Origin: a virus
Reading direction: 5' to 3' (one strand)
Virus record (IMG/VR): IMGVR_UViG_3300025778_000019
Location: 1 to 51,482 of that record
Length of the DNA stretch: 51,482 nucleotides
Positions 6,414 to 30,393 of this stretch are shown in pieces (positions within the stretch are counted from its first letter, which is position 1; each line of letters begins with the position of its first letter). Both the position numbers and the translations under genes were made by a program. The notes under the pieces were generated by a model. That model saw only the letters and a list, made by a program, of their open reading frames with translations, ran no database searches and was not told the DNA's origin.

Positions 6414-6431
6414 GCAGCGATTCGCTGTCAA
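6414..6431 (-). promoter_or_regulatory. 18-bp palindromic element, copy 2
   Basis: On the minus strand this reads TTGACAGCGAATCGCTGC; 17 bases after TTGACA comes TAATGG, an acceptable -10. The expected transcription start falls at about 6395, the ATG of the scaffold-like gene, so its message could be leaderless. A second TTGACA on the plus strand (6439-6444) lies 8 bases away and faces the plus-strand cassette. Confidence 0.7.
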
Positions 6432-8285: not shown

Positions 8286-8597
8286 TTAGACCTCTTCCTG
8301 CAAATTCAGGATGCTTTTACAGCCGGCAGCATCTTCTTCTGTCATCCTGGCAATAGACTTCAAGGTTGCCAGGATGGCGCGCTCTTTCCCGATGTCGGAT
8401 TCAGGCGTACGCTCATCGAGGATCTTCTCCTCCTGCGCCCGGATCTTCTCCTTTAGCCGGCGAAGGAAGTAGTGCTGGAAAGGGCGTGAGGCGCGGAGGG
8501 CGAGAATAGCCTCCATGTCTTCAAACGCGCGCGATTTGCTCTCACTGGTCGATGCATCATCCGCCTCGTCCTTCTGGTGGTAGTTTTCCTCACTCAT
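8286..8597 (-). CDS. Small portal-linked hypothetical protein
   Basis: The protein has 103 residues, is acidic at the N-terminus, then helical: ILALRASRPFQHYFLRRLKEKI followed by LDERTPESDIGKERAIL and TLKSIARMTEEDAAG. It overlaps the portal stop by ATGA, so the two are co-translated. Short helical proteins of this kind often sit beside podophage portal genes; the role is not known to me. It is coupled downstream of portal and ends at the border of the plus-strand cassette. Confidence 0.6.
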   Translation of the reverse strand: MSEENYHQKDEADDASTSESKSRAFEDMEAILALRASRPFQHYFLRRLKEKIRAQEEKILDERTPESDIGKERAILATLKSIARMTEEDAAGCKSILNLQEEV

Positions 8598-10795
8598 GAT
8601 TGCGGCTGCCCCTGTGGCTGTGGCTGCCCCGGCGCTCCTTGTGGGGGCTGTTGCGGTTGCATAGCGGCAGGATCCAGGGGCTCGATGATCGTATCAGGCT
8701 GGGCTACCCGGAGGGCCTTCAATCGTTGCTGGGCGTAAGCCTTGGTCCGCTCCTGCAAGGGGAGGGGACGGTTATAGTAACTGTCAATCACGCTGTCGGC
8801 GGTATTGCCGGCCTCAAGAATCTGGCGGTCCCTCTGCTGGGTAATGGAAAGCTGGACGTGCAAGGCGAGATCCCTGACTTCATCGGGATCCAGGGTGAGG
8901 ATGTCTTGGGCATCGCCGTTGAAGTAGGTGAAAATCTGCTGGGTATCCAGGTTGGAGAAAATGCTATCGACGACGGCCCGAAGGGCTGCCTGGACTCCCG
9001 GGTAAAGGCGAAGCAGGAACATCGTGAAGAGTTCCTGTCCGCTCGTTGCCACCTCGTTAATGCCGGTAGCCGTGTTGGCAGCGGGCAGGCCGCTAATCTG
9101 CTGATCAGCGCCATTTACGACTCCGCTTTTCACCTGCATGAGCTGCATGAAGAGTTCGATCAGGTCCTTCAGTTCTTCACTATTTTCCGGCAACTGGACA
9201 TACGAGAGGGCATCGGTCGCCTTGTAGCCTTCTCTCAAAGTGTAGGTGGTCCCTTGATTGAGCTTCAGGGCCGGATCGCGGGCGCCCTCCATCGTCGCCC
9301 ATGGGGACCAGAACGTGACGCGCCCGCTGGCTCCATCGCGGAAGTTCCGGCGGTTGATCTGAAGGTCGATGAATTCCTGTTCCGGCTCGAAATATTCCAT
9401 CGCGCCCATGCCATACCAGCGGCCATCAACTCCGATCGGGCGGATGACTTCGAAGGGCCGGAGGCCGCGGAGCGTGACGTTGGCCGTGTACTCGTAGAAA
9501 ATCGGGGTGCGGGTGCGACGATCCACGATCAGCATGATCTCTTCCTGCTGGCCGTCTCCATCGGCATCGTAGGTGAGCCAGCATTCCGCGATCTGGCTTT
9601 TCGGGTTATTGGGGCTCCCTTGTGTGGTCTGCTCGTAGAAATCGACCCTGGGCTGCCCCTCGGCGCTCTTTGCCTCGGCGCTGTCTGCCAGCATATTCCG
9701 CAGGATTTCAACGGCATTGTTGTAGTCGGCGACGCCGGCATCCCCTTCTTCAAACTGGTCGCTGAACATCTGCGCGACTTCCATCGCGCTCTTGTCGTAA
9801 AGGTGTGCGATCAGGTCGGCCTCTCCAGGCTGGATCCCGGGAGCGTCGATCGGCGCCAGGAAATCCTTGTAGTAGCAGATGCGGGAATCAGGCCCCCTCC
9901 AGGTCACGAGGCGCCGGGTAATAACATCTGTTTTCCAGATAGGATTTTCGGGGAGAGGGGTTACGCCGTCCCTTTTCAGAACCATGACGCCGGTGGGCAT
10001 GAGCTGGGGTTCCTGCTCTTGTTCCTGGGTTTGAGGAGTCTCCCCCTGTTCTTCTTGGGGCGGCTGGATTAGCTGCCCCATCTGCGGCACGAAAAGATCG
10101 GTTTGCAGAATATAATCGCCGTGGGCGTCCAGGACGGGGTTGCCGGCATCATCCACAAGGAACGTCGCCGTCCTCTTGTAAATCTGGAATTTCTCCGAGT
10201 GAACGGTCTTCACAACGGATTCCCCGCGGACCCACGCATATTCGACGCCCTGGGCATGGCGCTGTTTAACGTGGCATTGGGAGGCCACATACCGCGCGTA
10301 CTTTTTGACTTTATCGGCCAACTCGTCATCCTCGACTCCAACCGGTTCCGCGGTGAACCATTCCTGGTCGTCTGGCTGCCCGTAGAAGAATGAATTGCTC
10401 TTGGCGATCATTTGGGCGGTGATCCTCTGAGAAAGAGACGCCGTAAGGTTGGAGTGTTCGTAAATCGTGTTTTTTTCGACACGATCGGAAACATGGTTGT
10501 AATACCTGGCCGTGTATTTCTCCCGCTTCCCAAAGAAGCTGTAGGGATCGCTGGTAAGGATGAAATCCTTGCTGCCGGAGGCCCTGGGAGACTGCGTGGG
10601 CTGCCGCTTCCCGAGCTGCTGTTCAATCTGTTCGACCCGGAGAAGGGCGTGTTCCACAAGGGAATCCTCTTGGTCTCGCGTCAGCTTGTAGGAGGTCTTG
10701 AACGGCATCCTGGGGCCGTCCGGAGTGGGGGTCGCTGTAGGCAGCTTGCTGGAAAGCTGCTCCACCTGGGATGTAAAGTTTGAGGAGCTAATCAT
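8594..10795 (-). CDS. Portal protein (head-tail connector)
   Basis: The protein has 733 residues, a length usual for podophage portals. The N-terminal part has a helical region ending in FFGKREKYTARYYNHVSDRVEKNTI; the middle contains WRGPDSRICYYKDFLAP; a later segment (EFIDLQINRRNFRDGASGRV) precedes a helical crown region and a Gln/Pro-rich tail. It should form the dodecameric ring through which DNA enters and leaves the head. It lies directly after the giant polyvalent gene, with copy 3 of the palindromic element 26 bases before the ATG. A weak ribosome site (AAGGCGG) is present. The call rests on size, context and motifs as remembered. Confidence 0.8.
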   Translation of the reverse strand: MISSSNFTSQVEQLSSKLPTATPTPDGPRMPFKTSYKLTRDQEDSLVEHALLRVEQIEQQLGKRQPTQSPRASGSKDFILTSDPYSFFGKREKYTARYYNHVSDRVEKNTIYEHSNLTASLSQRITAQMIAKSNSFFYGQPDDQEWFTAEPVGVEDDELADKVKKYARYVASQCHVKQRHAQGVEYAWVRGESVVKTVHSEKFQIYKRTATFLVDDAGNPVLDAHGDYILQTDLFVPQMGQLIQPPQEEQGETPQTQEQEQEPQLMPTGVMVLKRDGVTPLPENPIWKTDVITRRLVTWRGPDSRICYYKDFLAPIDAPGIQPGEADLIAHLYDKSAMEVAQMFSDQFEEGDAGVADYNNAVEILRNMLADSAEAKSAEGQPRVDFYEQTTQGSPNNPKSQIAECWLTYDADGDGQQEEIMLIVDRRTRTPIFYEYTANVTLRGLRPFEVIRPIGVDGRWYGMGAMEYFEPEQEFIDLQINRRNFRDGASGRVTFWSPWATMEGARDPALKLNQGTTYTLREGYKATDALSYVQLPENSEELKDLIELFMQLMQVKSGVVNGADQQISGLPAANTATGINEVATSGQELFTMFLLRLYPGVQAALRAVVDSIFSNLDTQQIFTYFNGDAQDILTLDPDEVRDLALHVQLSITQQRDRQILEAGNTADSVIDSYYNRPLPLQERTKAYAQQRLKALRVAQPDTIIEPLDPAAMQPQQPPQGAPGQPQPQGQPQS

Positions 10796-10821: not shown

Positions 10822-10839
10822 GCAGCGAATCGCTGTCAA
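10822..10839 (-). promoter_or_regulatory. 18-bp palindromic element, copy 3
   Basis: On the minus strand this reads TTGACAGCGATTCGCTGC; 17 bases after TTGACA is TACGCA. The TGA stop of the giant polyvalent gene (10838-10836) lies inside TTGACA, exactly as at copy 1. The portal ATG is 26 bases beyond the element. Confidence 0.7.
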
Positions 10840-13800
10840 TCCGAAGCCGGTTTTCTTCTGGCGATATAGGCTGGGGTGAAGATGCGCTGCTTGGCTTCGT
10901 GGCCGGCCTCTTCGAAGGCTTTTTTGACGGCCAGGAAGTCGTCGCGGCGCGGGTGATCGGCGTTTCGTGAGTTCACGATGCCCGCGAGCTTGGATTTTAC
11001 GAGCTGGCCGGCGGCCTTGCGGAATTTCGTGGTTTCCTCCGCGGTCATGGCCTGCTCTTTCCCGTCGGCTCCTTTGAAAACCGCCTTTGGAGCCTGGGGG
11101 GCCCATGCCTCCGAGGGGTTTTCCCTATTCCAGTTCATCAGAAGCTTGTCGCTCTGCTTAAGTTCGGGGGGTGTCGCCAGCGCGGTAAGGAAGAACATCC
11201 GGCTGATCGGATTGCCTGATTTCTTAACCTCCTCTCCGTAAGCGTCCAGCTTGGGCTGCGCGAGGTTGGCGGTAGGAAGCGACGTGTAGAGCGTTGGGGC
11301 GGTCTTTCCTTCCCTGACGGTATCATCGGTGCTGCGAAGCGGGTCCCGGATGATGTTTGGCACGAACGCCTGGAGAAGCGTCTTTTTAATCGCGGAAATG
11401 GGGGTTGCCTCACGGGAAGCGTCCGCAAGTTCCATGATGGTATTCATGCCTTGGAGGAAGCTCTTGGCGCGCACCTGTTCGGTCAGGTAGGACCAGACGT
11501 GATGGAGCTGCTCGTCTGACGGGGAGTTGCTCTTGAGCGCGTGGACGGTATCCACAACGCTACCCAAGACAGTTCCAAGGGGCTCCAGTCGCCCGAACGG
11601 GATCTTGACTCCATCCCTTCCGCCTACCCTGATGACATAGCTGCCTCCGTAAGCGCGGTCCTCCAGGTCGCGGAATCCTTTCCCGTCTTCCCTGGATTTC
11701 GGCGCGGCGCTTCCGGTGATGAGGAGTTTCTTTGAGTCGTCGTCCTTGTCGCCCGCAATGGCTCCCCACAAAAGAGCCCCAAGCCCGAGGGTGAGGACCT
11801 GTTCTGCGTAATCGCGCACCGCCGTTTCGTGGCCGGCCAGGTATCCCTCGCCTTTTGCCATGGATCGGATTCCCTTGGTGGCCCTGTAAGCCAGGGCCGG
11901 CGCTCCGAACGCGCGGCGCACCCCGATCCTCATGATGTTGTAGGGGGTTTTCACGAACGGGAAGATCAGGTTGAGGAGAGGGGCCTCTTGCCTCATGTCC
12001 TGAATCTTGGCTGCCAGATGCTCGAATGTATTGCCCCCCTCGGACTTGGTTTTAAGTTCCTGCTTGAAGCCGATTTCGTTGGCGCTATCGACGGCCTGGC
12101 GCCAAGCGTCATCCTTCCATCCGTCTTTTTTGGCGGCATCGTAGGCGATTTGCTCTCTCGCCATGGACCAGGCATCGCTTCCTTTGTCGGCAACGAGGTC
12201 GTCGGGGTTGATGGTCTCGTCACGCGCGGCAATGCGGTTGGCAAAGTGCTTCACCATCTCATCGGTGGGTGTGACCTTGCTCATGTATTCTGAAACAACC
12301 TGGCCGCGTGTTTTGACGAGTTGTTCCACCCGTTCCGAGAGAGCTTTCCCCGAAAGCCCTTCTGCCCTGGCAATCCGGTACGCATGAGTTCCTGCCTCCA
12401 TCTGTGCAACGGCATTACGGATGAGCGCATCGGCAAAAAGGACTGCCCTTCCGGGAATTCGGATTCTGCTGCCGCTGACCAAGGGGAGGGTAAAGTTCCC
12501 GATTTTGATCTTTTCGGGGATTTTCCCCATCGGTGCATCCATGACTCCGCGGCGCACCTGCTCAAGTTCCAGGGGTGTGCCCAGGACGCTATTCTCAAAG
12601 AAATCGTGTTCAGCCCCCCAGGACCGCATGGCCTCTTGATAGCCTTTGGCAATTCCCGGGAAGAGCCCCTTGGCTAGGTATTTGAATTCCCCGAATCGCG
12701 CTGCTTTCTGATCACGGGCGGCCAGGTTGACCAGGGCTTCCATCCCCCGCTGTGCCGTGAGGCTCCAGACAGCATTCCCCGCATGGCCGAGGAAGTTGTA
12801 GATATGAGTATGAGGGCCGGAAAGCAGCCCCATTTTCCATGCTTCCAGAGCCATGTCCAATTTATCGGCCTCTCCTCGGGCTTCCTGGATTGCCCTGGTC
12901 ATGCGAACAATGTGGGCTGGGTCCTCGATGTTGAATTTGGGCTTCCCTTGTTCGGCATCAGGAACGACCCCGAGGCGGCGCATCCACTTCTGGAATTCGG
13001 CTTCCGCCTGTTCTTTGGATACCTTGTTCCCTGTAATTAGGGTTGCCTGATCGGCCTTTGCTCCTGCTTCAAATTTTGCAAAGTGATCGGCGCGCATTTT
13101 GGCGACAAACTGATCCTTGATCCCCTGGATCTCATCCGGCTTGAGGCCAGTCATCTTGGAAATATGATCCAGAGACTTGTTTGCCAGGATCATGTCGAAC
13201 GCCGCCTTCTTGGCGTCGGATCCCGATGGCCTGGAAAGCATGGAACGGAATTCATTGAGGATCTTTTTCTCCGCCAGTCGAAGAGTCACCCTGTCATTAA
13301 GGATGTCCTCTGGGGTGATGCCGGCGGCCGCAAGTTTATCCAGGAGGCGCTTGGTCTCCGCGTCGATCATCGCGGCTTTCTTCTCCGGGTCTTTTTCGGC
13401 GTCAATAGCCTTCATGTCCTTGCTGCCAGGCTTGGTCATGAGATCCACTAGGAAGTTGCGGTAGCGCTGTGCCGGCGTCATGTAGGGGTCAACGCGCGAG
13501 GCCATGGCGCGCCCCGCGGCGGTTCCGGTCATCCGGTAGCTATTCCAGAAGCGATAGAAGGCCGCTTTGTTCTCGTCGCTGGGATCAGCTACCATTTTCC
13601 TGCGAAGACGATCCGCCAGGATGCCCGCGGCAATGGTTTCCTCCGGGGTGAGCGTCTCGCCGTTGAGCGCCTTTGACTGGATCCGGTTAATCGTCCTCTT
13701 GGCTTCTCCCTTTACGAGATCCTGCGCCGCGGCTTCCCATTGGTCACGGGTTTCGGGCGTGGCTTTTTCATCGTAGTATTCATCGACGGCCCTGTGTTCC

Positions 13801-16800
13801 GGCGAAGCGGCTCCATAGGCGCGGTCGGGGCTGCCGATCTTTTTCTCCTTGCCGCTGTTTTCTTCCGCCTTGGCTTTCTCTACCAGGCCGTCCAGGTGAT
13901 CCATGAAATCGTCGATTCCCTGTTCCCCGGCATCAGCCGACCGAGAAAGGATTTCGTCGGTATTGGTGATGCCTTTTTCGGCGAACCTTTTCTTCAGGCG
14001 CTCGTACGCGGCTTTCTGGAGGTTATTGACCGCCTGCCGGGAAATCCCCATTTCTTTTGCAATCTCCTCTCCGTTTTTCCCTTCCAGCGCACCATTGACG
14101 GCGGCTTGCATCCGCTCGGGAAGGGTGGATAGCCCCTCATCCAGGAGCGCCCTAGCTTCATTGCGCTGGGTGTCTTTTTCGGGGTTAGGGGAGGTGAGAT
14201 CAGCGGTGTGGTCTTGCTGCGACTCCTCATAATCCGCCCCGGCTGGGTTGTTGAGCGTGGGCTGGTATCTGTCCGCGTGGGTTTTTTCCTGATTATAGAG
14301 ATCGCGCAATGTATTTCTGACGGCCTGTCTGGCATACGCCTGGAAGGGGACGCCTCTTTCCGGATCGTAGGATTTGGCGGCTTTGGCTACAGCGATCCGA
14401 GCTACCTGGCGGGCTTCATCACGATCATACCCGGGAGTATTAGAGAAAAGCGCCGACTGCTGATTGATGAGGGGTTCCGATTCCCTCAACCTCTCCGCAG
14501 GAGTTTTTTGCCCATCTTCCGCTGCCTTGTCGAAGTCCAGCTCAAGCTGGTTTTCGTCATTAGCTCCGCGGGAAAATAAAGCATCGGAGGTGGTTGCGTT
14601 TGAGAATCTTACATCAAACGGAATCATGTCGCGATCAGGAGGTTTGATGAAATTACTCCTGGTGACATCGTGCATCCGAATCTTTGAATCGCTATGCTCC
14701 CAGTATTGACCATCAGGGCCATACCGAAGCTCCCATCCCTGACTATGAAGGTAGGGAAGAATCTCCTCTAATTCGGGATGTCTGCCCTCGATGAAAGGTT
14801 GCCTTACCCAGATTTCAGGGGTTCCGTCTGGACGAATGGAGACCCCCAAGAAATCAATCCTTGCAGATGGCACGATGGCGTTAAATTCAGCCTGTCGTTT
14901 GAGATATGAAAACGGATCTGCGTCTTTGTTGAAAAATTCCTTAATGACGAATGATTCGCCCTGTTCATTTCTAGGGGTGAAATAGACCTGATGTTCCGTC
15001 CCTCCGTAAATACCTCTCGCCCTAGTAAAGCCCTCAATGGCTTCAGGGGAAATAATCCTGTTATTATCCCGTGCCCATTCAATCAGGGCCGTTTGATTTC
15101 TAGCTCTATCCGAGTCCGACGGGGCTACCGTGTGATCCTTGGCCCCTCTGGCCGGGTCAATTTGCTCAAGGACGCGTTCCGGTTGAATTGCTGCTCGGCC
15201 TCCTCCGGAGATAAGGTCGTGTGCCTCAATTCCCCTGGGAAGAGGGCCGGAATTTTCTCCTTGGCGCTCTCCTTCTGGGGATTCGGATTTGTCTTCATGG
15301 GTAGTTGAGTCTTCATCATTCCAGTTGAGTTTTCCATTGTTTTCTTCACGTTCGCCATTAACACCCCTGGAGTACAACGCGGTTCCCCTGTCGGTCTCCC
15401 TGGTATCCATGGCTTCAAAAAGACCATCGAAAGCCTGGCGGATCCCGTTTTTCATCTCCTCCGGCGTCGGGTAGACTTTGGACCCTTTTTCAATGTTGGC
15501 GAGGTAGTCGTTGGAGATTCCCTTTTCAGCCAATCGGTCTTTGGCGTACTGCTCAAAAGCACGAGCGGCTTTTTCAATCGTCGTGTTCCAATAGGGCTTG
15601 CTGCGAGTTTCGTCCTCTTGTTTGGAGCGTTCGGTGAATCCTTTTTCCTTCAGGGCATCTTTCAGTGCGTTAAAGGCCTGCCACACTTCGGGACGCACGT
15701 TCTTTAGGAGCTGCTGCTGATCGCTGGCGTATCCAGGGGAAGCATTTTGCCAATCAGTCTTCCCGGTGATATTCAGGCGCGCGAAATAGTTATCGAGGGC
15801 ATGGAACCACTCATGGGCAAGCGTTCCCGGCCCTCCGCCCTTGGTGAGATTGATGACTACTTGGCTGGGCTCGTAGTGGGCCAAAGCGGCATTTTTACCA
15901 CCCTTGCCCCTTGCTCCGAAGGCAAGCCCAAGTTGTCCGTCAAGGGAGAGAGCCCTAGGGGGAATACCAAGCGCGGATGCCAAGTCCATCAGCGCGTCGA
16001 AAGAATGGTTGAGGTCAGTCTGACGACGGGTGTTTTCGACATAGTTTCCAAACTGGACGCCACGGAATCCAAACGCCTCATTGAAAGCCTCCGGGGAGAC
16101 ATCCCCGGGGCGCTGCAGCTTGCCTTCCCTGGGGGCATTGGTTTCATTGCGGCCCGTGGTCTGGGTTTTCATCCCCTCCCAAATCTTTGCCAGTTCATCG
16201 TAGCTGTTTGCTAGGTAGTCCCTGGCATCTTTCAGATTACTGAATCCAGCCTTGATTCGCAGGACGCTTGTTAGTCCCTTCTTGCCGATAAAGAGTTCTC
16301 CGCTTTGCCTGTCGCGGTAAATATTGAACGGGATCTTCTTCTGCTTTGTGGGCTCATCTCCGGCCGTAAGGGAATCACGCTCGATCCTGGCCTTGATTTG
16401 TGCGGCGATCTCCTTGAACGCGGCCAAACGATCAGGATTGGTCGTTCGCATTTCCGTCGTGCGTCCGTCATGTTCGGCCATGGTGAGCCATTGATCTGGG
16501 GTAACGATTTTATTGCCATTGCGGTCCCACATGGTGACCCCGCGGCTCTGGTCGATGCTCCAGTCTTTGGCTTGAAGGAAAGAGGGGTATCCCAGCTCTT
16601 TATAGAGAAGCACTTTGCTGAAAATCTTACTGCCGGCCTTTTCGGCGGCCTTCATCATGAATTCAAACGAGACATTGGAATCCGGAGAGGCAAAAGACCT
16701 CATGGCCTCATGGACGGCCCTCACCACCTCTCCCCATCGGGCTAGTTTATAGGGACTGCTTGGCTTTCTGGGGATCATGTCCCGAAGGGCCTTCATGGCT

Positions 16801-19800
16801 GCCAGGCGATTGGGATCAAACCCGGAAGCGATCAGCTTTTCGTAATCCGGCTCTGGGAAGTTTTTGGAAAGCGTGATGTCGGAGTTTTTCTCCGGCAAAT
16901 CCTGGGAAATAGCGTCCGAAAACACCTTCCAGGAATCTTTTCTTGCACCCTCGATCTTCTCGCCAAAATCCTTGATCTCGGATGGGGTAGATTGCCCCCC
17001 AAAAAGGTCCGATCCTGGTTTTGCTTCAGCGGCGGGAGCCTTGATCGAGTCAAGCGCCTTGGAGAGCGTTGAGGGATCGCTATTGGCTAAGAGGCTTTCC
17101 TTGGTGGCGGTGAGGGGACGTTGACCGGCTTCGATGGCAAGCTGGGCCACGGCTGATTCAGGAATGGCCTCCAAGCGTTGGCGGTTTGAATCCTCAAGAT
17201 TGTTTTCTTGGCTGTGCGGCTGCGATTGTTCGGGAGCGGGGGCTTCTTCTCCGTCCGGCTTGATAAAGGAAAATAGATCCATCGCCTCGTTGGCCGGGAT
17301 GTCGAGATCACGCATGGCAGCCTCGGCTTTCGTTTCTGGATCCGTGATCCCTTCCTTCTCTAGCGCGTTGTTGTAGGCTTCGATTTCTTGTTTATGGGAC
17401 GCAAACAGGTCTGGCGTGTATCCATGTTCAAAAAGGTCTCCCTGGGAATCTTCTGAATTAGCCCTGCGGGAGAAGAGCGCCTGCCCCTCCTGGACCGAAT
17501 TTCTCATTTCTGGAGTGATGTCGATTTTCCAGATTGGGCGCGCTCCTATGGCTACTCCTGTTTTCTCGTCGTCATTTGCCATTCCTCGCGTCGCCGGGTT
17601 TTTCGGGTCGAGATAGAATTGCTCAACTCTACCTCCCCATTGTTTGACGTATTTCCCGACTTCCTTGGGAAGGATCTGATCGTAAAAACCTTTCATGCCC
17701 TCGCCGCCTACCTTAAGGTCTAGGCCTCGCAGTATTGTAGCTCCGGAAAATGAATCTTTTTCGCCCTCTCCATTGGCAATTTTCTCTGCAATTTCTTTTC
17801 CTACGTTATCGGAGAGTTCCGCTTCTTTGAGGTCGTTACCCAAAGAGGACCATTCTCCATTCCTGCCTTTGGGAATAAATTGAACCTTATAGGTTCCATC
17901 ATCTCGTTTGACGTATTTGAGTGCATCAACCTGTTTGCTCAAGTCATAGCGTTCGGCCTGGGTGTCTCCGCTCGTCCAGCCGATCCATTCCTTGCCGCTT
18001 GCGATAGCATCACGCAAAGCGCGTTTGAACATCTGGACTGACCAATCTTTGCGGAAGGGGGCGTCGGGGATGCCTGCTTCAGGAATTAACTTTCTAGCTG
18101 CCGCAATAGATTCCTCTGGGGTGTCTTTGTATGTGCCGCTGACATACTCCCCTGCATTGTTCCACACACCATAAGAAGGCCCGTCGCGTCGCACCTCATA
18201 TCCTTCAGGGAGTCCTTTTTCTGGAATGCTTTTTTGATACCCTTTTTCTCGTCCCTTCTGATGCCTGTCAGACTGAATCTCTTCGATGAAAAGACCAGGT
18301 CTCCCGTCAGCATCTTTGCGCTCATCTAGCCTCATGTGGGCTACATAGTTTGGGATGCTGGGGAAATGGGAGGAGCGATAGGTTTCCTGATTTGGTTTTG
18401 CCAGCATCTCATCCTGAGATGCCTTCCCGAGAAGTTCATTTTTAGTTGCCGATCCCTCACGATAAACCCAACCGTCTTTGTCCCAGATGTTCCATGTGCC
18501 ATCCTCCATCTGGCGAGCCTCCATCCCGGCTTTAAGATTAAGGGCATCTGATCCTGGCATTGACAGGACAACCTCCCTGTAATTCTCGCCTCCTGGGATG
18601 GAATATCTCTTATACTTTGGCTCAGATTTTTGACGATCTAGCTTGTTGGTGTTTTCTACCAACTCTGTTTGCATCTCACTCGGGAGGTCTTGGAAATCGA
18701 GATCCTCACCTTCTCCGGAAGTAAAGGTGTATTCCTCGGAATGGGGATCATATTCCGCCGTAAATCCGTATTTTTGAGCGATCTGCTGGGCGTCGCGTTC
18801 GGCCTGTTGTGCGGCCGGTTCTCCTAGCGTTGTTTCTTGGAATTGAACGCGCCCCTCATCTCGGAGCCACTGCATCAAGGTATCCTTGGGAACTTTGCCT
18901 CCGTTTTGCTCGGCAAGCTCGTCAATCTTTGGAAGAATTCCGGTCCATTTCACCTCATCGGGCTTGATTCCAGAATCCGGTTTTGTGATGAGGGCCTTGA
19001 TTTGATCGGCCGTTCCGGCTTTCCCTTGGATTTTTGCTTCCAGGGTTTTACCCATCTTGGAATAAAAGCCGTACTCATCGGTGTCGGCGCTGCGCGCAAG
19101 AAGGCTTGAGAGTTTTTCTCCAGCAACGACGCTCTCGCTATCGTCGCTTCTTCTGGAAAGGAGGGCAAGCTGGTCTGCCGGAGACGTGGGGGCAACCGGC
19201 CTGGATCCCTCTTCGCTTTCCAGAGAAAATGCTGGCTTGGTTTCGTCAAAGAAGCCCATGAATTCCTGCCCCTGTTTTTTCTCCAGGCTGACAAGCTCCT
19301 GCTGCTCGAACTGATTGAGCCCTTCTTCGGATCGCTTCCGAAGGAGTTGGCGCATCCTTTTAAGGGGGTCTTGCGCCCTCCTTGATGAAAGTTCCCCGGC
19401 GGTCTCTGATTTTTCGACCTTGGCTTCATGGGCCGCGATCGCGCGCTGGATTGTGCTTTCTGCCGTTTCTGTATTTCCCAGGAGATCGGGGGCATTCTCT
19501 CCTCCCTCATTACTGAATCGCTCGACGGCTGAACCGATGTCCCTCATCAGTTCCTTGAATCCCTCGATGGTAGATTCGCTATCCACCGGCTTGATTCCCT
19601 TCTTGTTAGGCTGGAAATACTCGACCTTCTTTTCAAGCGCCCTGGCGATCATGTTCATGATCGGGCCGCTCTTCCCCATTTCCATCTGATCGGCCGCATA
19701 GCGAATGGCCGTCCCGATTTTCTCTCCGCGCTTGGAGTAGTCTGCAATGTTCTCCAGGGCTCGGCCCAAGGCATCCGCGATGTCGCCGCGGCCGGCCTCA

Positions 19801-22800
19801 CGGAGGCGCAAGGCGGTCTCTGAAGAGGCTTCCAGGAGGCCGACCATCGTGGCGTGGCCGTTCTGTAGCCTTTCCGAGGTAAAAAATTCAGAGAGGGGCT
19901 TGCTATGGAATGCGGCCGCCATGACAAGGCGCTGCATATAGAACTGGGCCTGGGTCGGATTCTTGACCAGGCCGGCCATTAGGTTCCGGTCCAACCCTAG
20001 CTTCTCGCTATCCTTGATAAGGCCAATCAGGGCGGTGCGGGCCTGCTCGGGACTCATCGTCACGGGAAGGTTCACCAACCGCTCCGCCGGGATCTTCAGC
20101 GCCGCGTCGATGTCTGCGCGTGAGGCGGTATCCTGGACGACGCCCTGCGAAGGATTCAGCTTATCGACAAGCTGTTGATACTTCTTGGCCTGCTCGGGGT
20201 CCCGTAAATCATAGACACCAAGGAATCTCCCGCCCATCCATCCTTCAGGCATCCCCTGTAGCCCGAAATTCGATTCTTTGGATTTCCAAAGATCGGAAAG
20301 GCGCTCCTGATCTTCGGCCGGGGCCAACTTGATCCCCATAAGGCGGCCGTTTCCTCCCGCCGCTTGGAGCTTCACCTGGGGATTGCCGTCCTTGTCGTTG
20401 AAAATAGTCAAGGCGTACTGCGGGGGTCCGTCCGCGGCGCTCTTAACGTCGCTCACGATGGAATCCTCATCCAGGGCTCCCGGGAGTGCTATCTGGCGGA
20501 CCTTGTTCTGCTCCGTCTCGTCGGAGTGATAGGGGCGGGTGTTCTCCCCTCCGTAATTCGGGTTAATCTGGAAATCTTCCCCGACATGAGAGGCCTCGAC
20601 CCGATCCAGCGGCGCGGCAAAGTAGGCGGCCGGAATCTTTTCGCGGTTTGCTCCCAGGACATAGGTTGCTTCTCCCATGTGCATCTGGGATAGAATCTGC
20701 TCCGCCTGGGGGCGAACATCAGCAGGGACGCTTTCGGCGATCTTCTCCGTGTCGGCGGTTTTTTCCGCCAGGATTTCAGCCGCCCTATTCTTTCTCTCCT
20801 CGGCGCGAGCCTTTTCGGCCTCGCGTTCAGCCTTTTCAGCTTCTAGCTGGGAAACTCTCTCTCGGAGCGATTCGGCTTCTCCTCCTCCACTAGGTCCTCC
20901 AGACACTCCTCCAAGTGTTCCTCCCAGTCCTTCACGGTTGGTGGCTGCCTTCTCATTTCTTGAAGGTTCCTCGCCCTGTTTCGCCACTCCTCCGCTGTTT
21001 GTATCCTGGGATCTGCTGATCTGGTCATATTTCTCCCGATACTGATCCAGGAGCTTTGCGTCAACCTGGGAACGCAGCGATTTAATGGCCTCTCGGAGGT
21101 TCCCTCGCACTTCTTCTACCGATGCAATGGTTTTTTCCGATGCCCCGGATGCACGGAGGTTATCGGCCAGTTTGGAAAGATAGGAGAAGAGCGAAGCCAG
21201 GTGATTCTTGATCTGGGCAACGATCTTGGCGGGGAGGCTCTGCTCGGTAACGAGCGCGCTGCCGTCGTGGACGTTTCCGTTTTTATCTACGGCCAGGTCA
21301 TGCTGGGCCAGCATCCGGAGGAATTCATGGCCGAGCTGATAGGGAGCGTGTTGTCCTGGTTTTTCGCTGTAGATTCCCTCGACGTGGCTCTGGAGGTCTT
21401 TGGGCAGTGAGTTGAAGAGATCGGCCGCTTCCGCGTCGGCGTAGTCGGCGGCCGTGGGCGTTTCCTCGACTTTTTTGGCGCGCACCTTGTCCAGGCTCTT
21501 AATGATGGATTCCCTGGATCGTCCCGCCTTGATCGCCTGATCAGCGAGCATCTTGTATCCCAGGGCGTGGATGGCCTCCTCACTGACAAGCAGGCTGGCG
21601 CGAGACGGGTGTTCAAGGATCGTCTTGACGTTTTCGCTTCCATCCATCAGGTCGCCAAGGCTGATTTCGAGATTCTTGGAGTTGCGAAGCAGTACCCCTC
21701 CAGAACTCAACTTCTTGCCGGAGAAAACCACCTTTGAGAACGCATCATTCCATTTGGCGATTTCCGGCTGCAGTTTCGTGAGGACCTGGGCAATAGCCTT
21801 GAGGTGATTAACGGTGATTGGCTTCCCGTTCACCTTGACTCCCGAATTCTGAATCTGATCCAGGAGTGATTTCACCTGATCCTGATTTACCTTTTCCTGG
21901 GCCTCGGTGAGGTCCGGAGACGCGTCGGCCTTTTCGGTGGAATCTTCCTCGGGACGGAGATCCAGGAGTTTCCTGTTGGTTTCCTCTGCCTGACGGCGTT
22001 TCCCTTGATTGCTGGCAATGGCGTCGTTCGCCATTTGCTGATGTTTTTCAGGCGCCTCTCCGGGATAGCTGGCTTTCCAGTATTCGGGATCCTCGTTGTA
22101 TTCCTGGAGATGCTTTGGAAACACGCCTCCATCACTCTCGAAGTCGGCCATGACTCGCTGGCGCAACTCTTCATTGGTGATGTCTTCGGGGTAAGAAGCC
22201 TCACGGAGGCCCGCATAGTGATCTGCTACTTCTTTTTCGACTCCCTGGGATTGGAGAATTTTTGAAAGCATCGTCCCCCGTTTTGTTTGCGGGGACAGAG
22301 GGCCTTGCTGCTCTTTGTTGTCCTGGGTTTCTTTTCCGAGGATCCGCGGAGCGGGCGGATCCTGATTTTCCTCACCGGCTTTTTCTTCCGGGCTACCAAC
22401 GCGGACCATATCGCTTCCAAAAAGGAGAGCATTGTCTTTGGTAAGGGCATCTTCATTTGCGTCGAGGTTGAATGTTTCGATGTGATCTCCGTTCGGGGAT
22501 TTGACGGATGCGATTCGGTTGCCTTCTTTGTCGGAATCAATCGTGATGACGTAATTGTTGCCAAACGGATCTGGGGAATGGAAAACGTCGCCAGGATTGG
22601 CATTCTTCCACATTGTGGCCGCGCGCTCTTTCCTGTCTGAAAGGGGGGCCGTCTCATCAAGGGGATCGGGATCCGATGACGCTAGCTTTTCGGACTCCCC
22701 AGATTGAGTTTCAGTCTCTTGGCGATTCTCGCCACCTGGAGTCTGGTTTTCCCCTGCTTGATCTGCCGTAGCCCCAGGTTGTTGTGATGGCGCCTTGTTT

Positions 22801-25800
22801 TCATCGGATGAAGTCGTGCTGTTGATTGCGCTGATCGCGTCCTTGGCTGCCTGACCTGTGGCTCCAAGCATTTCCGCGGCGTGGGGAGCCATTCCGGAAA
22901 GCCATGCCTTGGCAGTATCCGTGATGACGGTTTTCCCCTCGTGATCTTCGATAAAGGGAACGCCGGCGCTGGTTTTGGCTTTCCCAACGGCCGCACGTTC
23001 GGTCTCGGTGAGGTTCTGGAATTCAACGCCCTGGGAGATTTTCAGCAGGGCGGACGCAAGGTCGGTCCTGTTTTCTTGGGCAACATTGACCGGCTCGGTC
23101 CTGATTTGCTGATTGAGTGCTGCAATCTGGGGGCCAATCTTTTCAGCCTGACTGGGATCCGCGGTGATTTTCTGGAAAAGCTCGTTGCGCTGCTTGACTA
23201 GATCCTTGGTAGCCGGGGAGGTGTTGAGCGCGTCAATTTGCTGATCCGCGGCCATGAGAAGCTCCGGCTTCCCATTCCAGTTTTCAGGCAGATTGTATTT
23301 TTGCTTCAGGGCATTGATTTGAGACGCCCCCTTATATTCTCCGTATCCATGGAAAAGGCCCCAGAGGGCATCTTGGATGGTTGATTCTGTGGAAGGCTTC
23401 CAATCTTCGCCTTGGATCGCCCTGGAAGCGGAGCCAATAGCCATGTTGCTGGCGGTGGCCCCGGCTGTTCCAACCACCCCCTTTACCAGAGGAGACGCGT
23501 CCTTGAACAAAGATGCGACTCCCGCGGAAGTAAGTTTTCCGCCAACCATGTAGGCCGCTAAAGCAGGGAAGCTTTTTGCCGCCGCAAGGGATCCCGCTTC
23601 TTGTGCTTTATCCTCGATTTCCTTTTCGTCTTTTACCCCGGACTGCTGAAGTTGGGATTTGGTCGCATCATACCCCTCGCTGTAGGCTTGCGATGCTCCC
23701 TGGAGAGTAAAGCCGACAATTCCGGCCGGCCCGCTAAAAGCCATGGCGGGCAATGTGCCGACAAATCCGCCCGCCCCTTTACCGATTTGTGCGGAAAGCG
23801 ATTTGTCGGTCGGGTCAACACCGTAGGCCGCCTGGTATTCCCGGTTAAGCTGGGATAAATAATCAGCTCCAGATTTTGCCGCATCCGCTAGACCCTGGAG
23901 GGGCTTATGGTTATCCGGGTTGGCCTCGCGTAGGTTTTGGGCGCGCTTTTTGGACCAATCAAGATCGCTCTCCATTCTGGCGATCTTGTCCGGGTCTGCG
24001 CCCGCGGCCTTTTCAGCATCAATGGCTTTTTGCTGCTCAGAAACCTGATCCTCGGCAACGTCGGCAAGACTCTTGTTTTGGGAGGCGAAGCGAAGGATAC
24101 CTCCGACTGTCGAGGGAATGATTCCTGCCAGGGATGCTCCGAAATTATTGACGGCGTTGACAAACGGGTTCCCGCTTTCGTTTCCCGATTTGATCGGTTC
24201 TTGCGCCGTTGCCTGGAGGCGCTGCCTTTCGCCCTGAATCCATTGATCCTTTGCTCTTTTTAAGATATCGACCTGGACCGCTTGCTTTTTTTGCTGGTTG
24301 TCAGCATCAAGCATTTCTTTTGCCGCATCCTGAATGGATGGATCCATCCCCTGAATGAGCGCTGATCGCTGTTTGTAGTCTTGATCGAGTTGGTCTAGCT
24401 GACCCGCGGCCGGTGCCGTAATTGGGTCCAGCTTCATTTGGTCCCGAGCTGCCTGCTGCTCTTTCTGGCGCGCCTGATTGTAGGCATCCTGCCCGGCCTG
24501 GAGCTGCTGAACTTGCTCGTTCCTGCCGGCAATCTTTTGCTGGTAGGCCTGCTGGTCCGCCTGAATCGAGGCTCCTTCCTTGTCTAGCTCTGCAATCTGC
24601 TGGGCTGTTCCCCCCTGCTGTCGTTTTGCCTGGAAATCAGCAATCCGCTTTTTCAGCGACTCTCCTTCTTGGGAGAGTTGCGCGTCGGTATCGGAAAGAT
24701 TTTTCTGGGTTTCCGCTAGCGTTGCGGTGGCGTCCTCGGGCGCCATGGCGCCGATTTGCCCGGGAAAGCTACCGGCGGCCGTTCGCCTGGCCTCCTGAAG
24801 GTATCCCGCCGGCCCCATTTCCTTGAGCTGTTGCTGGCGGTTGGCAGCCTCTTGGAGCTGCTGCCTGGTTTGCTTGATCTTGGAATCGGTGTCGAGCTGC
24901 TGCGTGACAGCGTTGAGGGAAGACTGGCGCTCATCCTCGGCCTTTTGCCAGTCTGCCATGGCTTGAGCCGTGGCCTCCTTGTTTTCACCAAACCAGGAAG
25001 TAACCGGCTTGGGTTTTTCCGCGGGAGCCGAAAGAGCTTCTTTTTGGGCAAGGAGGTTTTTCTTGGCTTTTTCCGAAAGCCCCGAAGACCCCATGATCGC
25101 TTGGGTAGGGGTTGCTGGACCGGCCTCATCACCGGCATCTTCTGGGGTCTCGGGCTGCCCGGACGCGGTGCGTAAGTTTTGAATCTGAAGGCGAAGCCCG
25201 GAAATCTTATTAGCGGTATCCTTTAATTCCTTGGCGTGGAGATGAATCGCGCTGGCAACCGCAACCTTATTGTCTTGGGACAGAACTCCCTGGTGAGGGT
25301 CAATCACCTCCCATGGCGAGTATTGATTCTGCCGATAGAGATTCTCGTCAGTCGGATCGTCGGGGTTTTTCCCGATCTTTGCATCGGCATCAGGATTCTC
25401 GATCACTTTCCCAGGCTTTCCTCCCGGATTGTAAGTAACCTGATAAGGCCGGCCCTGTTCGTCGTATTGAACGGGGTGCCGGCGCTCGACGACGGCCTGC
25501 TGACCGGTTGAAGGATCGACCCTGGGCCGAGCGATCCCGTTTTCGTCGTAATCGTACTGGCGGCCGGTGAGCTGGCTATCCTGGCGCGCCTGTGAGTTTG
25601 CCGCCTTTTTCTGCTGGCTGTAAGCTATCTGGGCCTGCTGCTTATCGTAAGAAGCCGCCTGTTTGTCGTAATCGTTGATTAGCTTGTAGTTGTAAGTGTC
25701 GTTCTCAAGGGTTCCCGCTGGCAAAAATGTAGGCTCAATCGGGGCCTGCAGCGTTTTGGGATTCTGGATGTCTGCGTTTCCGGCCGGCTCCGGGAGGGAC

Positions 25801-25931
25801 GCGAAGTCTCCCGCTTTTGACTCTGGAGCTGGTGATCCGCTTTCTTGTTGAGAGGAATCTTGCGCGGGAGCGTAATCCTCTGGGGTAGAGCCGGGAACCT
25901 GGCTCTCTTCTTCCTGGTCGTCGAGGGCCAT
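10836..25931 (-). CDS. Giant polyvalent virion protein (5,031 residues)
   Basis: One unbroken 15-kb frame, probably packaged and injected with the DNA. Domains I can place (rough residues): disordered N-terminus; coiled coils 240-560; hydrophobic stretches near 590-615, 715-745 and 780-808; a SEEAIH helix near 1447 like a degenerate metallopeptidase; a DdrB-like ParB-type domain 1755-2140 with the GNGR signature near 1860; a large domain 2285-2820 with IEEIQSDRHQ near 2544, common in such phage proteins; an LPD1-like zincin with HEWFHALD at 3373-3380; a polyvalent-type kinase-like domain 3600-3780; a sigma-70-like domain 3830-3985 with a region-2-like part and a region-4-like helix-turn-helix; and a C-terminal region (LSGPHTHIYN near 4367, FPFVKTPYN near 4664) typical of large phage virion proteins. 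Roles probably include host takeover and defence suppression. Domain names are from memory; borders are approximate. Confidence 0.85.
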   Translation of the reverse strand: MALDDQEEESQVPGSTPEDYAPAQDSSQQESGSPAPESKAGDFASLPEPAGNADIQNPKTLQAPIEPTFLPAGTLENDTYNYKLINDYDKQAASYDKQQAQIAYSQQKKAANSQARQDSQLTGRQYDYDENGIARPRVDPSTGQQAVVERRHPVQYDEQGRPYQVTYNPGGKPGKVIENPDADAKIGKNPDDPTDENLYRQNQYSPWEVIDPHQGVLSQDNKVAVASAIHLHAKELKDTANKISGLRLQIQNLRTASGQPETPEDAGDEAGPATPTQAIMGSSGLSEKAKKNLLAQKEALSAPAEKPKPVTSWFGENKEATAQAMADWQKAEDERQSSLNAVTQQLDTDSKIKQTRQQLQEAANRQQQLKEMGPAGYLQEARRTAAGSFPGQIGAMAPEDATATLAETQKNLSDTDAQLSQEGESLKKRIADFQAKRQQGGTAQQIAELDKEGASIQADQQAYQQKIAGRNEQVQQLQAGQDAYNQARQKEQQAARDQMKLDPITAPAAGQLDQLDQDYKQRSALIQGMDPSIQDAAKEMLDADNQQKKQAVQVDILKRAKDQWIQGERQRLQATAQEPIKSGNESGNPFVNAVNNFGASLAGIIPSTVGGILRFASQNKSLADVAEDQVSEQQKAIDAEKAAGADPDKIARMESDLDWSKKRAQNLREANPDNHKPLQGLADAAKSGADYLSQLNREYQAAYGVDPTDKSLSAQIGKGAGGFVGTLPAMAFSGPAGIVGFTLQGASQAYSEGYDATKSQLQQSGVKDEKEIEDKAQEAGSLAAAKSFPALAAYMVGGKLTSAGVASLFKDASPLVKGVVGTAGATASNMAIGSASRAIQGEDWKPSTESTIQDALWGLFHGYGEYKGASQINALKQKYNLPENWNGKPELLMAADQQIDALNTSPATKDLVKQRNELFQKITADPSQAEKIGPQIAALNQQIRTEPVNVAQENRTDLASALLKISQGVEFQNLTETERAAVGKAKTSAGVPFIEDHEGKTVITDTAKAWLSGMAPHAAEMLGATGQAAKDAISAINSTTSSDENKAPSQQPGATADQAGENQTPGGENRQETETQSGESEKLASSDPDPLDETAPLSDRKERAATMWKNANPGDVFHSPDPFGNNYVITIDSDKEGNRIASVKSPNGDHIETFNLDANEDALTKDNALLFGSDMVRVGSPEEKAGEENQDPPAPRILGKETQDNKEQQGPLSPQTKRGTMLSKILQSQGVEKEVADHYAGLREASYPEDITNEELRQRVMADFESDGGVFPKHLQEYNEDPEYWKASYPGEAPEKHQQMANDAIASNQGKRRQAEETNRKLLDLRPEEDSTEKADASPDLTEAQEKVNQDQVKSLLDQIQNSGVKVNGKPITVNHLKAIAQVLTKLQPEIAKWNDAFSKVVFSGKKLSSGGVLLRNSKNLEISLGDLMDGSENVKTILEHPSRASLLVSEEAIHALGYKMLADQAIKAGRSRESIIKSLDKVRAKKVEETPTAADYADAEAADLFNSLPKDLQSHVEGIYSEKPGQHAPYQLGHEFLRMLAQHDLAVDKNGNVHDGSALVTEQSLPAKIVAQIKNHLASLFSYLSKLADNLRASGASEKTIASVEEVRGNLREAIKSLRSQVDAKLLDQYREKYDQISRSQDTNSGGVAKQGEEPSRNEKAATNREGLGGTLGGVSGGPSGGGEAESLRERVSQLEAEKAEREAEKARAEERKNRAAEILAEKTADTEKIAESVPADVRPQAEQILSQMHMGEATYVLGANREKIPAAYFAAPLDRVEASHVGEDFQINPNYGGENTRPYHSDETEQNKVRQIALPGALDEDSIVSDVKSAADGPPQYALTIFNDKDGNPQVKLQAAGGNGRLMGIKLAPAEDQERLSDLWKSKESNFGLQGMPEGWMGGRFLGVYDLRDPEQAKKYQQLVDKLNPSQGVVQDTASRADIDAALKIPAERLVNLPVTMSPEQARTALIGLIKDSEKLGLDRNLMAGLVKNPTQAQFYMQRLVMAAAFHSKPLSEFFTSERLQNGHATMVGLLEASSETALRLREAGRGDIADALGRALENIADYSKRGEKIGTAIRYAADQMEMGKSGPIMNMIARALEKKVEYFQPNKKGIKPVDSESTIEGFKELMRDIGSAVERFSNEGGENAPDLLGNTETAESTIQRAIAAHEAKVEKSETAGELSSRRAQDPLKRMRQLLRKRSEEGLNQFEQQELVSLEKKQGQEFMGFFDETKPAFSLESEEGSRPVAPTSPADQLALLSRRSDDSESVVAGEKLSSLLARSADTDEYGFYSKMGKTLEAKIQGKAGTADQIKALITKPDSGIKPDEVKWTGILPKIDELAEQNGGKVPKDTLMQWLRDEGRVQFQETTLGEPAAQQAERDAQQIAQKYGFTAEYDPHSEEYTFTSGEGEDLDFQDLPSEMQTELVENTNKLDRQKSEPKYKRYSIPGGENYREVVLSMPGSDALNLKAGMEARQMEDGTWNIWDKDGWVYREGSATKNELLGKASQDEMLAKPNQETYRSSHFPSIPNYVAHMRLDERKDADGRPGLFIEEIQSDRHQKGREKGYQKSIPEKGLPEGYEVRRDGPSYGVWNNAGEYVSGTYKDTPEESIAAARKLIPEAGIPDAPFRKDWSVQMFKRALRDAIASGKEWIGWTSGDTQAERYDLSKQVDALKYVKRDDGTYKVQFIPKGRNGEWSSLGNDLKEAELSDNVGKEIAEKIANGEGEKDSFSGATILRGLDLKVGGEGMKGFYDQILPKEVGKYVKQWGGRVEQFYLDPKNPATRGMANDDEKTGVAIGARPIWKIDITPEMRNSVQEGQALFSRRANSEDSQGDLFEHGYTPDLFASHKQEIEAYNNALEKEGITDPETKAEAAMRDLDIPANEAMDLFSFIKPDGEEAPAPEQSQPHSQENNLEDSNRQRLEAIPESAVAQLAIEAGQRPLTATKESLLANSDPSTLSKALDSIKAPAAEAKPGSDLFGGQSTPSEIKDFGEKIEGARKDSWKVFSDAISQDLPEKNSDITLSKNFPEPDYEKLIASGFDPNRLAAMKALRDMIPRKPSSPYKLARWGEVVRAVHEAMRSFASPDSNVSFEFMMKAAEKAGSKIFSKVLLYKELGYPSFLQAKDWSIDQSRGVTMWDRNGNKIVTPDQWLTMAEHDGRTTEMRTTNPDRLAAFKEIAAQIKARIERDSLTAGDEPTKQKKIPFNIYRDRQSGELFIGKKGLTSVLRIKAGFSNLKDARDYLANSYDELAKIWEGMKTQTTGRNETNAPREGKLQRPGDVSPEAFNEAFGFRGVQFGNYVENTRRQTDLNHSFDALMDLASALGIPPRALSLDGQLGLAFGARGKGGKNAALAHYEPSQVVINLTKGGGPGTLAHEWFHALDNYFARLNITGKTDWQNASPGYASDQQQLLKNVRPEVWQAFNALKDALKEKGFTERSKQEDETRSKPYWNTTIEKAARAFEQYAKDRLAEKGISNDYLANIEKGSKVYPTPEEMKNGIRQAFDGLFEAMDTRETDRGTALYSRGVNGEREENNGKLNWNDEDSTTHEDKSESPEGERQGENSGPLPRGIEAHDLISGGGRAAIQPERVLEQIDPARGAKDHTVAPSDSDRARNQTALIEWARDNNRIISPEAIEGFTRARGIYGGTEHQVYFTPRNEQGESFVIKEFFNKDADPFSYLKRQAEFNAIVPSARIDFLGVSIRPDGTPEIWVRQPFIEGRHPELEEILPYLHSQGWELRYGPDGQYWEHSDSKIRMHDVTRSNFIKPPDRDMIPFDVRFSNATTSDALFSRGANDENQLELDFDKAAEDGQKTPAERLRESEPLINQQSALFSNTPGYDRDEARQVARIAVAKAAKSYDPERGVPFQAYARQAVRNTLRDLYNQEKTHADRYQPTLNNPAGADYEESQQDHTADLTSPNPEKDTQRNEARALLDEGLSTLPERMQAAVNGALEGKNGEEIAKEMGISRQAVNNLQKAAYERLKKRFAEKGITNTDEILSRSADAGEQGIDDFMDHLDGLVEKAKAEENSGKEKKIGSPDRAYGAASPEHRAVDEYYDEKATPETRDQWEAAAQDLVKGEAKRTINRIQSKALNGETLTPEETIAAGILADRLRRKMVADPSDENKAAFYRFWNSYRMTGTAAGRAMASRVDPYMTPAQRYRNFLVDLMTKPGSKDMKAIDAEKDPEKKAAMIDAETKRLLDKLAAAGITPEDILNDRVTLRLAEKKILNEFRSMLSRPSGSDAKKAAFDMILANKSLDHISKMTGLKPDEIQGIKDQFVAKMRADHFAKFEAGAKADQATLITGNKVSKEQAEAEFQKWMRRLGVVPDAEQGKPKFNIEDPAHIVRMTRAIQEARGEADKLDMALEAWKMGLLSGPHTHIYNFLGHAGNAVWSLTAQRGMEALVNLAARDQKAARFGEFKYLAKGLFPGIAKGYQEAMRSWGAEHDFFENSVLGTPLELEQVRRGVMDAPMGKIPEKIKIGNFTLPLVSGSRIRIPGRAVLFADALIRNAVAQMEAGTHAYRIARAEGLSGKALSERVEQLVKTRGQVVSEYMSKVTPTDEMVKHFANRIAARDETINPDDLVADKGSDAWSMAREQIAYDAAKKDGWKDDAWRQAVDSANEIGFKQELKTKSEGGNTFEHLAAKIQDMRQEAPLLNLIFPFVKTPYNIMRIGVRRAFGAPALAYRATKGIRSMAKGEGYLAGHETAVRDYAEQVLTLGLGALLWGAIAGDKDDDSKKLLITGSAAPKSREDGKGFRDLEDRAYGGSYVIRVGGRDGVKIPFGRLEPLGTVLGSVVDTVHALKSNSPSDEQLHHVWSYLTEQVRAKSFLQGMNTIMELADASREATPISAIKKTLLQAFVPNIIRDPLRSTDDTVREGKTAPTLYTSLPTANLAQPKLDAYGEEVKKSGNPISRMFFLTALATPPELKQSDKLLMNWNRENPSEAWAPQAPKAVFKGADGKEQAMTAEETTKFRKAAGQLVKSKLAGIVNSRNADHPRRDDFLAVKKAFEEAGHEAKQRIFTPAYIARRKPASD

Positions 25932-29703: not shown

Positions 29704-30393
29704 TCAATCAGAATGCCTGATCGAACATTGCTCCCGGGCTATCCACTCCGAGGCGGCATACACGCTAGGGTTGCTCTCATCCACCTTGCAATTTGATGTG
29801 CATTGCATCGTGAACCTGAAGAATGTCAGAAACTCGAACATATAGACCCTCCCGCAATGATCACACTTGGCGATATACTTGGGAACTGCGTAGGGAATCC
29901 CGCACCGGAATCCAAGACCATTGCGCTTCAGGCTGCTGATACCCCAGTCGGAAAGACAAAACTCCTTGGGCTTCCTTTCGGGGATTGCCTGGGCCCGCTT
30001 CTTTCTCTTGGGTGGGGATTGCCCCCATTCGGCCTTGAACCCTGGAGGGGATACCGATTCCAGCGAGACCACCGCCTCCGGCTCCTGGACTTCCACCAGT
30101 TCCGGCGATGGCATACTAGCCTTAAGGATGGCGTCGGCCTCCTCCGTAAACCCTGCCGACTTCAACGCGCTAGGATGCCTCATCAGCCGATGAGCCTTGC
30201 CGATAATCTGCCTCACCCGCTCGGTGCTGTATACCCTCCCCGGGCATATCACCCTCCCGATCGAGGTCAATGTCATCTCCTCGAAGTACCTCATCCGGAT
30301 GACGGCCTTCAGGCGCGCGGTGGGGAGCGAGTCAACCAGGTGATCCAGCGCCTCCCGGAGGATGCGATCAGGAAGGTGCTCAGATTCGTTCAC
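29704..30393 (-). CDS. Sigma-70 region-4-like transcription factor with zinc ribbon
   Basis: The protein has 229 residues, started at GTG 30393, which overlaps the recombinase stop (GTGA). Residues 16-74 match sigma-70 region 4: LVDSLPTARLKAVIRMRY, then TLTSIG and STERVRQIIGKAHRLMRHPS, close to the C-terminal end of RpoD, which contacts the -35 element. Residues 95-150 are a Pro/Glu linker then a basic patch (PPKRKKRAQ). Near 177-205, CDHC and a later CTSNC suggest a zinc ribbon. It lies at the border between early and late genes, followed at once by copy 5 of the TTGACA palindrome. It may direct host RNA polymerase to late promoters. No region 2 is seen, so it may act as an accessory factor, not a full sigma. 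Confidence 0.7.
   Translation of the reverse strand: MNESEHLPDRILREALDHLVDSLPTARLKAVIRMRYFEEMTLTSIGRVICPGRVYSTERVRQIIGKAHRLMRHPSALKSAGFTEEADAILKASMPSPELVEVQEPEAVVSLESVSPPGFKAEWGQSPPKRKKRAQAIPERKPKEFCLSDWGISSLKRNGLGFRCGIPYAVPKYIAKCDHCGRVYMFEFLTFFRFTMQCTSNCKVDESNPSVYAASEWIAREQCSIRHSD

Follow-up and report, generated by a model that had tools for sequence, protein, structure and literature searches.

A predicted two-domain sigma-70 module embedded in a giant polyvalent phage protein, and its possible delivery with the phage DNA

Phages that depend on the host RNA polymerase (RNAP) are generally thought to begin infection with promoters read by the host sigma factor, and the classical phage sigma factors have middle or late genes as their targets. 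T4 gp55, the SPO1 types and CDS0024 of Fusobacterium phage phiRTG5 are phage-encoded sigma factors for the host RNAP, provided by separate small genes that are expressed post-infection. Virion preparations of Staphylococcus phage fRuSau02 yielded a sigma factor that was judged not to be structural (PMC5618024). The virion RNAP of N4 (schitovirus) is a transcription component carried within a giant virion protein and injected for early transcription, and T4 Alt and similar proteins are injected with the DNA and retarget the host RNAP through ADP-ribosylation. Virion RNA polymerases are also the transcription starters treated in the main text of the 2017 survey of polyvalent proteins by Iyer et al. 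(PMC5512222), in which main text the word "sigma" has no occurrence. Among open-licence papers, taken by their main texts, we found no description of a virion-borne, ejected or injected sigma factor.

The window analysed here, the whole stretch of 51,482 nucleotides given as IMG/VR record IMGVR_UViG_3300025778_000019, comes from an uncultured bacterial virus and encodes a protein of 5,031 amino acids that resembles the polyvalent proteins of the survey (PMC5512222) in being multi-domain with LPD5, LPD1, a zincin motif and Kinase-PolyVal, and in having its gene within a phage structural block. The relevant features are as follows.

3684-5180: major head protein
8594..10795, minus strand: portal protein, SU10 type (PHROG 1216, E 6e-20; Pfam SU10_portal, E 1.4e-13)
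10836..25931, minus strand: gene of the giant polyvalent protein, 5,031 aa, with LPD5, LPD1, Kinase-PolyVal and sigma domains
10839..13937, minus strand: C-terminal module after the sigma module, ~1,030 aa, internal-virion-protein-like (tblastn)
14646..15098, minus strand: Kinase-PolyVal, residues 3612-3762, immediately preceding the sigma module (Pfam, 34.1 bits, cut-off 27)
15399..15614, minus strand: LPD1 domain (Pfam, E 2.4e-17)
15801..15815, minus strand: HEWFH zincin-type metallopeptidase motif, residues 3373-3377, within a CLCA_X-like region
16074..16499, minus strand: LPD5 domain (Pfam, E 6e-25)
26870..28750, minus strand: probable terminase (PHROG 24361 terminase, E 1e-10)

Disparate activities and LPDs are thus joined in one polypeptide (LPD5, LPD1, Kinase-PolyVal, HEWFH, sigma), which is one mark of a polyvalent protein; the second is the position of the gene in a phage late/structural neighbourhood, with the portal on one side and the terminase on the other. 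The C-terminal module shows a weak match to the internal virion protein of the Pelagibacter phages Gjalp and Eyrgjafa (tblastn, E 3e-6, 24% identity over 646 aa). The preliminary description had assigned the protein to the virion; gene locus and C-terminus fit a virion or ejection protein, so that "virion" stands as a prediction, and it is a reasonable inference that the giant protein is made late and packaged. Within the otherwise minus-strand structural block lies a plus-strand ORF of 392 aa (window 7097-8275) that is without Pfam or PHROG match.

An N4-type virion RNA polymerase was considered as the identity of the giant protein and rejected, since Pfam, PHROGs and NCBIfam reveal no T7-like single-subunit RNAP domain in it; nor did the same scans place any other RNA polymerase family in any part of the protein. 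The ORF list of the record, which is possibly incomplete, has no ORF of phage RNA polymerase size outside the giant gene. With an RNAP-sized ORF lacking elsewhere and an RNAP domain lacking in the giant, the host RNAP must serve. N4 brings a whole single-subunit RNAP into the cell, whereas the giant protein considered here has, by homology, a sigma factor for the RNAP of the host.

The sigma-70 module comprises two domains on residues 3804-3998 of the giant protein (window 13938-14522, minus strand), and is composed and bounded as listed.

13938..14582, minus strand: sigma module including both bracketing motifs, residues 3784-3998; ~23 kDa between the motifs
13938..13952, minus strand: ILSRS motif after the module, residues 3994-3998, read from sequence
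13977..14183, minus strand: sigma-4 domain, residues 3917-3985, with helix-turn-helix (HTH) GEEIAKEMGISRQAVNNLQK (Pfam Sigma70_r4, r4_2)
14184..14267, minus strand: flexible acidic linker, residues 3889-3916, with the sigma-3.2-like stretch TLNNPAGADYEES
14268..14501, minus strand: sigma-2 domain, residues 3811-3888, regions 2.1-2.4, with SNTPG and YDPERGVPFQAYARQAVRN (Pfam Sigma70_r2)
14568..14582, minus strand: ALFSR motif before the module, residues 3784-3788

The preliminary description had proposed a sigma-70-like domain embedded in a polyvalent protein, and the profile searches on the segment bear this out. On residues 3800-4012, regions 2 and 4 both score above the curated Pfam cut-offs (Sigma70_r2, PF04542, 31.2 bits, cut-off 24; Sigma70_r4, PF04545, 27.5 bits, cut-off 24.1; Sigma70_r4_2, PF08281, 27.5 bits, cut-off 25.7), and the NCBIfam whole-factor profile TIGR02937 (sigma70-ECF), which spans residues 35-183 of the segment and finds the two regions in the right order with the spacing of a sigma factor, gives 73.4 bits (E 1.5e-20, cut-off 42.9), far beyond chance. 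The same residues are matched by PHROG 351 ("RNA polymerase sigma factor") at 3e-17 and, in a single-sequence search, by RpoS chains in the PDB at 1e-6; FliA is reached at 4e-10 with a two-sequence profile of the module. The acidic stretch of the linker lines up with the RpoS segment SVDTPLGGDSEK. The peptides quoted earlier as region-2-like and region-4-like lie inside the range then given, at residues 3847-3867, 3868-3882 and 3954-3973 (window 14331-14393, 14286-14330 and 14013-14072, respectively).

Structure prediction on the segment likewise gives confident sigma-2 and sigma-4 folds. In an AlphaFold2 model of the module built from eight sequences, the pLDDT exceeds 90 across most of both helical cores (model residues 12-88 and 118-186) and falls below 50 in the linker (model residues 89-117). 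The nearest structures in the PDB are sigma factors: the predicted sigma-2 domain, with helices at model residues 12-18, 20-31, 38-55 and 64-89, superimposes on 1sig with Z 11.6 and 1.3 A over 76 residues (Z 11.6-12.3 across sigma-2 structures), and sigma-4 on SigD4 with Z 10.2 over 70 residues, Fusobacterium sigma-H giving Z 10.2 likewise. The overall rmsd to full sigma chains is large because the linker is free. A sigma-3 domain is absent from the modelled module, which has ~28 disordered linker residues and no helical sigma-3 in its place. The arrangement of sigma-2 and sigma-4 without sigma-3 is that of the ECF (group 4) factors, though a placement there rather than in group 3 is tentative in view of the superfamily-level scope of TIGR02937, the best PDB matches to RpoS and FliA, and the retained sigma-3.2-like stretch. 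Taken together, profiles and model identify the segment as a minimal but complete sigma factor, consisting of sigma-2, acidic linker and sigma-4. With the small two-domain sigma-70 factors (ECF, groups 3 and 4; TIGR02937) it shares domains, linker, fold and profile, and it differs from them in being embedded in a 5,031-aa protein and in belonging to a subfamily with the signatures [FY]SN-IPG and GIS[KR]QA. The sigma segment and the giant gene as a whole have the same GC3 (0.62 each), and the segment is therefore not a recent foreign insert.

The module recurs in other giant proteins. A 6.3-kb contig from a bacterial bin (L004) carries an ORF of 1,954 aa in which LPD5, a zincin-like region, LPD1, LPD3, ART-PolyVal and sigma follow in this order, before a region resembling the next segment of the giant protein; the two sigma modules are 32% identical. 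The contig has LPD3 and ART where the giant protein has its kinase, so the cargo appears swapped around a constant core. Sigma itself is swappable cargo, for among ~160 loci with an LPD5-LPD1 region only L004 has it besides the giant protein. In a prophage ORF of 4,188 aa (G443), on a contig that also bears integrase, DnaB and DnaD-like genes, the sigma module is the sole detectable similarity to the giant protein (36% over 160 residues, E 5e-20), and no homology was detected between the C-terminal modules of the two proteins. A further copy lies in an 896-aa ORF that is a fragment at a contig edge (G339). By TIGR02937 alone (cut-off 42.9) all four embedded modules pass, the three additional ones at 88.5 (G443), 50.5 (L004) and 48.5 bits (G339). 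In L091 (IMGVR_UViG_3300008262_000045), a polyvalent ORF whose length is at least 7,215 aa carries RadC, LPD5, LPD1, ART-PolyVal, a C5 DNA methylase and DUF7178.

A subfamily profile search places members in at least 12 of 384 genomes of the bacterial class to which L004 belongs and in at least 2 of 388 sampled genomes of the wider phylum, where the subfamily is rare and both were already known; these counts are lower bounds, the best few candidates per genome having been scored. Apart from G443 and G339, most members in the genomes of the class are free-standing proteins of 203-262 residues. Embedded and free members share the two subfamily signatures, so the donor was a family of ordinary small sigma factors. 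In a tree, they form one group apart from other phage sigma factors (86/87); how the embedded copies branch within it does not separate one embedding event from several, and the unrelated backbone of G443 favours repeated embedding or module transfer between giant proteins. Free members include G220:C68 (L225), which adjoins a gene for an FHA-domain protein kinase, G001:C146 (L223), and G353:C3 (L254); the last has ALYAPR in its C-terminus, resembling the motif at the module end, and its neighbourhood includes a probable phage-type integrase as well as a C5 methylase/Vsr-like gene pair.

Viral contigs were scanned with the sigma segment, the alignments A1, A2 and A8, and the flanking LPD5-LPD1 and C-terminal regions as queries. 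The scans returned the window phage, its 21.7-kb re-assembly (100% identical) and sigma proteins that were not observed within giant ORFs; the lack of further embedded copies is weak evidence, given that these scans were seeded on short conserved peptides. The matches in phiRTG5 and in plasmids were not counted as embedded copies, being annotated as separate genes. MT835896.1 (L085), labelled "Bacteriophage sp.", was rejected as a phage relative; it has adjacent sporulation-type sigma genes and also encodes a SpoIIGA-like membrane protein, and looks like a mislabelled bacterial contig.

Short motifs delimit the module. Composition-preserving shuffles of the giant protein lead one to expect 0.03 occurrences of the pattern [AI]L[FYL]SR; the protein has four, at the ends of modules (residues 2256, 2818, 3518 and 3784), and the copies at 3518 and 3784 directly follow LPD1 and the kinase, respectively. 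In L004 the sigma module is bracketed by ILHSA (1045) and ALFSG (1262), the latter being the counterpart of ILSRS; in G443, LFSK (3059) immediately precedes it. When defined more loosely, the motif is found at the LPD1 end in 61 of 100 distinct relatives, as against 7% of control windows. These occurrences mark a conserved signal between modules. In the form AL[FY]S[RK], the motif recurs where cargo domains of polyvalent proteins end and is a possible processing signal. That the ALFSR-type motif is a cleavage site is a guess, made because the giant protein has a zincin-like peptidase region and because peptidase processing has been proposed: the survey envisages zincin-type peptidases processing polyvalent proteins (PMC5512222). 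Cutting at both motifs would yield a product of 208 residues, 23.2 kDa and pI 4.9 (computed), similar in size to the free-standing sigma factors. What the analysis establishes is that the segment has the homology and fold of a sigma factor, that modules of this kind are embedded in several giant proteins but missing from most relatives, and that motifs bracket them.

On balance, we lean towards the module being an exchangeable sigma cargo of the giant polyvalent protein that is delivered with the DNA and redirects the host RNAP. To proceed in this way, the giant protein would be synthesised late, alongside the virion proteins, packaged in the virion and then ejected into the host together with the DNA. 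As part of the intact protein, or after its zincin-like peptidase has excised it at the flanking [AI]L[FYL]S-type motifs, the sigma module would bind the host core RNAP and steer it to phage promoters ahead of any phage gene expression. Packaging, ejection, release, core binding and promoter choice are steps that we infer; packaging, cell entry and redirection of the host polymerase by the module are made likelier by the present analysis. Delivery with the DNA is the likeliest mechanism because the gene is flanked by those of portal and terminase and the C-terminus is internal-virion-protein-like, and delivered cargo is further favoured because the module recurs independently in other giant proteins and is modular within motif boundaries. 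Counted against delivery are the weakness of the C-terminal match to an internal virion protein and the recurrent promoter-like elements of the genome; these contain a canonical TTGACA box, and a large part of the genome could therefore be served by host sigma. More tentatively, phages of one bacterial class may possess a virion-delivered, proteolytically released sigma factor, packed as a cargo module of the ejected giant protein, as a sigma-only alternative to the N4 virion RNAP that would have arisen in at least two unrelated giant-protein backbones; we treat this broader reading as possible.

If true, an injected sigma factor would enable a phage to start from promoters that the host cannot read, with a bearing on the finding and silencing of early phage genes and on host shut-off. 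Where T4 Alt ADP-ribosylates the RNAP, the sigma module would itself supply the promoter choice, which is thereby added to the known cargoes of polyvalent proteins. The module is small (~23 kDa), motif-bounded and found in several proteins, and so should be expressible alone and testable in vitro.

What the module could do at the polymerase is suggested by conservation among 15 members of the subfamily. N-[IT]-P is conserved in the loop of regions 2.1-2.2, A..A[LV]..AA...DP..G..F...A....RN.L...Y in regions 2.2-2.4, and G.[SE]I....G[IV]S[KR]QA in region 4.2; several members retain a D..Q.A segment, the equivalent of DL.Q.G in FliA. Regions 2.2/2.3 are the core-binding and melting surfaces of known sigma factors, and their pattern is kept in the module. 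Core binding is plausible, given that the retained region 2.2 is the part that binds the beta-prime clamp in known sigma factors. The tryptophan pair, which comprises the melting residues of primary sigma factors, is absent from the subfamily, and the usual residues of -35 recognition are not conserved; promoter specificity is therefore not predictable. The better conservation of core-binding region 2.2 than of the DNA-contacting residues of region 4.2 might suit an injected module that occupies the host core RNAP without initiation and so shuts down host transcription, as might the host-modifying kind of the neighbouring cargo (the kinase; ART in L004). Such a decoy would, however, have no need of sigma-4, and the embedded copies keep not only both DNA-binding domains but also the F..[YF]A melting segment and a linker of sigma-3.2-like type, which leaves this best placed of the alternatives unlikely.

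Ranking next, and unlikely too, is a role in the producing cell, where the module within newly made giant protein would boost late transcription and its packaging would be incidental. The gene does sit in the structural block, and the classical phage sigma factors work on middle or late genes; yet the module would have to exist before acting on its own operon, and such a role would hardly call for a 550-kDa protein that also contains LPD, peptidase and kinase modules. According to the survey, polyvalent proteins frequently bear DNA-binding domains (PMC5512222), and the module could accordingly be a tether that anchors the ejected protein to the incoming DNA or the RNAP, for protection or genome pulling and with no promoter choice involved. 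We consider this improbable, for a bare HTH would suffice, whereas the sigma-2 core-binding signature is present in every embedded copy. That a captured sigma gene has since become inactive is very improbable: although the embedded copies are just 27-36% identical, the frame is intact, the fold confident and the signature residues conserved despite divergence, and these features, together with the unrelated backbones, point to selection.

The preliminary description had also paired the module with an "early-made" region-4 protein at 29704, for which we find no support, the gene in question being directly upstream of the packaging/structural block. This protein and a recurrent 17-bp element of the genome are located as follows.

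29704..30618, minus strand: 304-aa protein with a sigma region-4-like HTH
704-720, 6415-6431, 10823-10839, 26846-26862, 29683-29699, 32691-32707 and 44467-44483, minus strand: copies of the 17-bp element

The 304-aa protein scores 22.4 bits with Pfam region 4, just below the cut-off of 24.1, and matches region 4 of SigA at 1e-4; it is a candidate late regulator, with a TTGACA palindrome element just past its stop codon. A generic -35/-10 scan for host-type promoters at 28.7-48.6 kb was discarded, its 8 sites comparing with 8.1 expected. As a route to relatives, the 17-bp element led to 36 stretches, which elsewhere hold single copies. The element, YTGACAGCGAWTCGCTG, combines a -35-like TTGACA with a palindrome of 13 bp to which it is fused, and is present seven times (five exact, two with CTGACA), giving it the look of a phage-specific promoter or operator. 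All copies are on the transcribed strand, most of them within ~50 bp upstream of a start codon, for example that of the portal gene and that of the gene preceding the giant, and in five of the seven a TA follows 17-18 bases after TTGACA.
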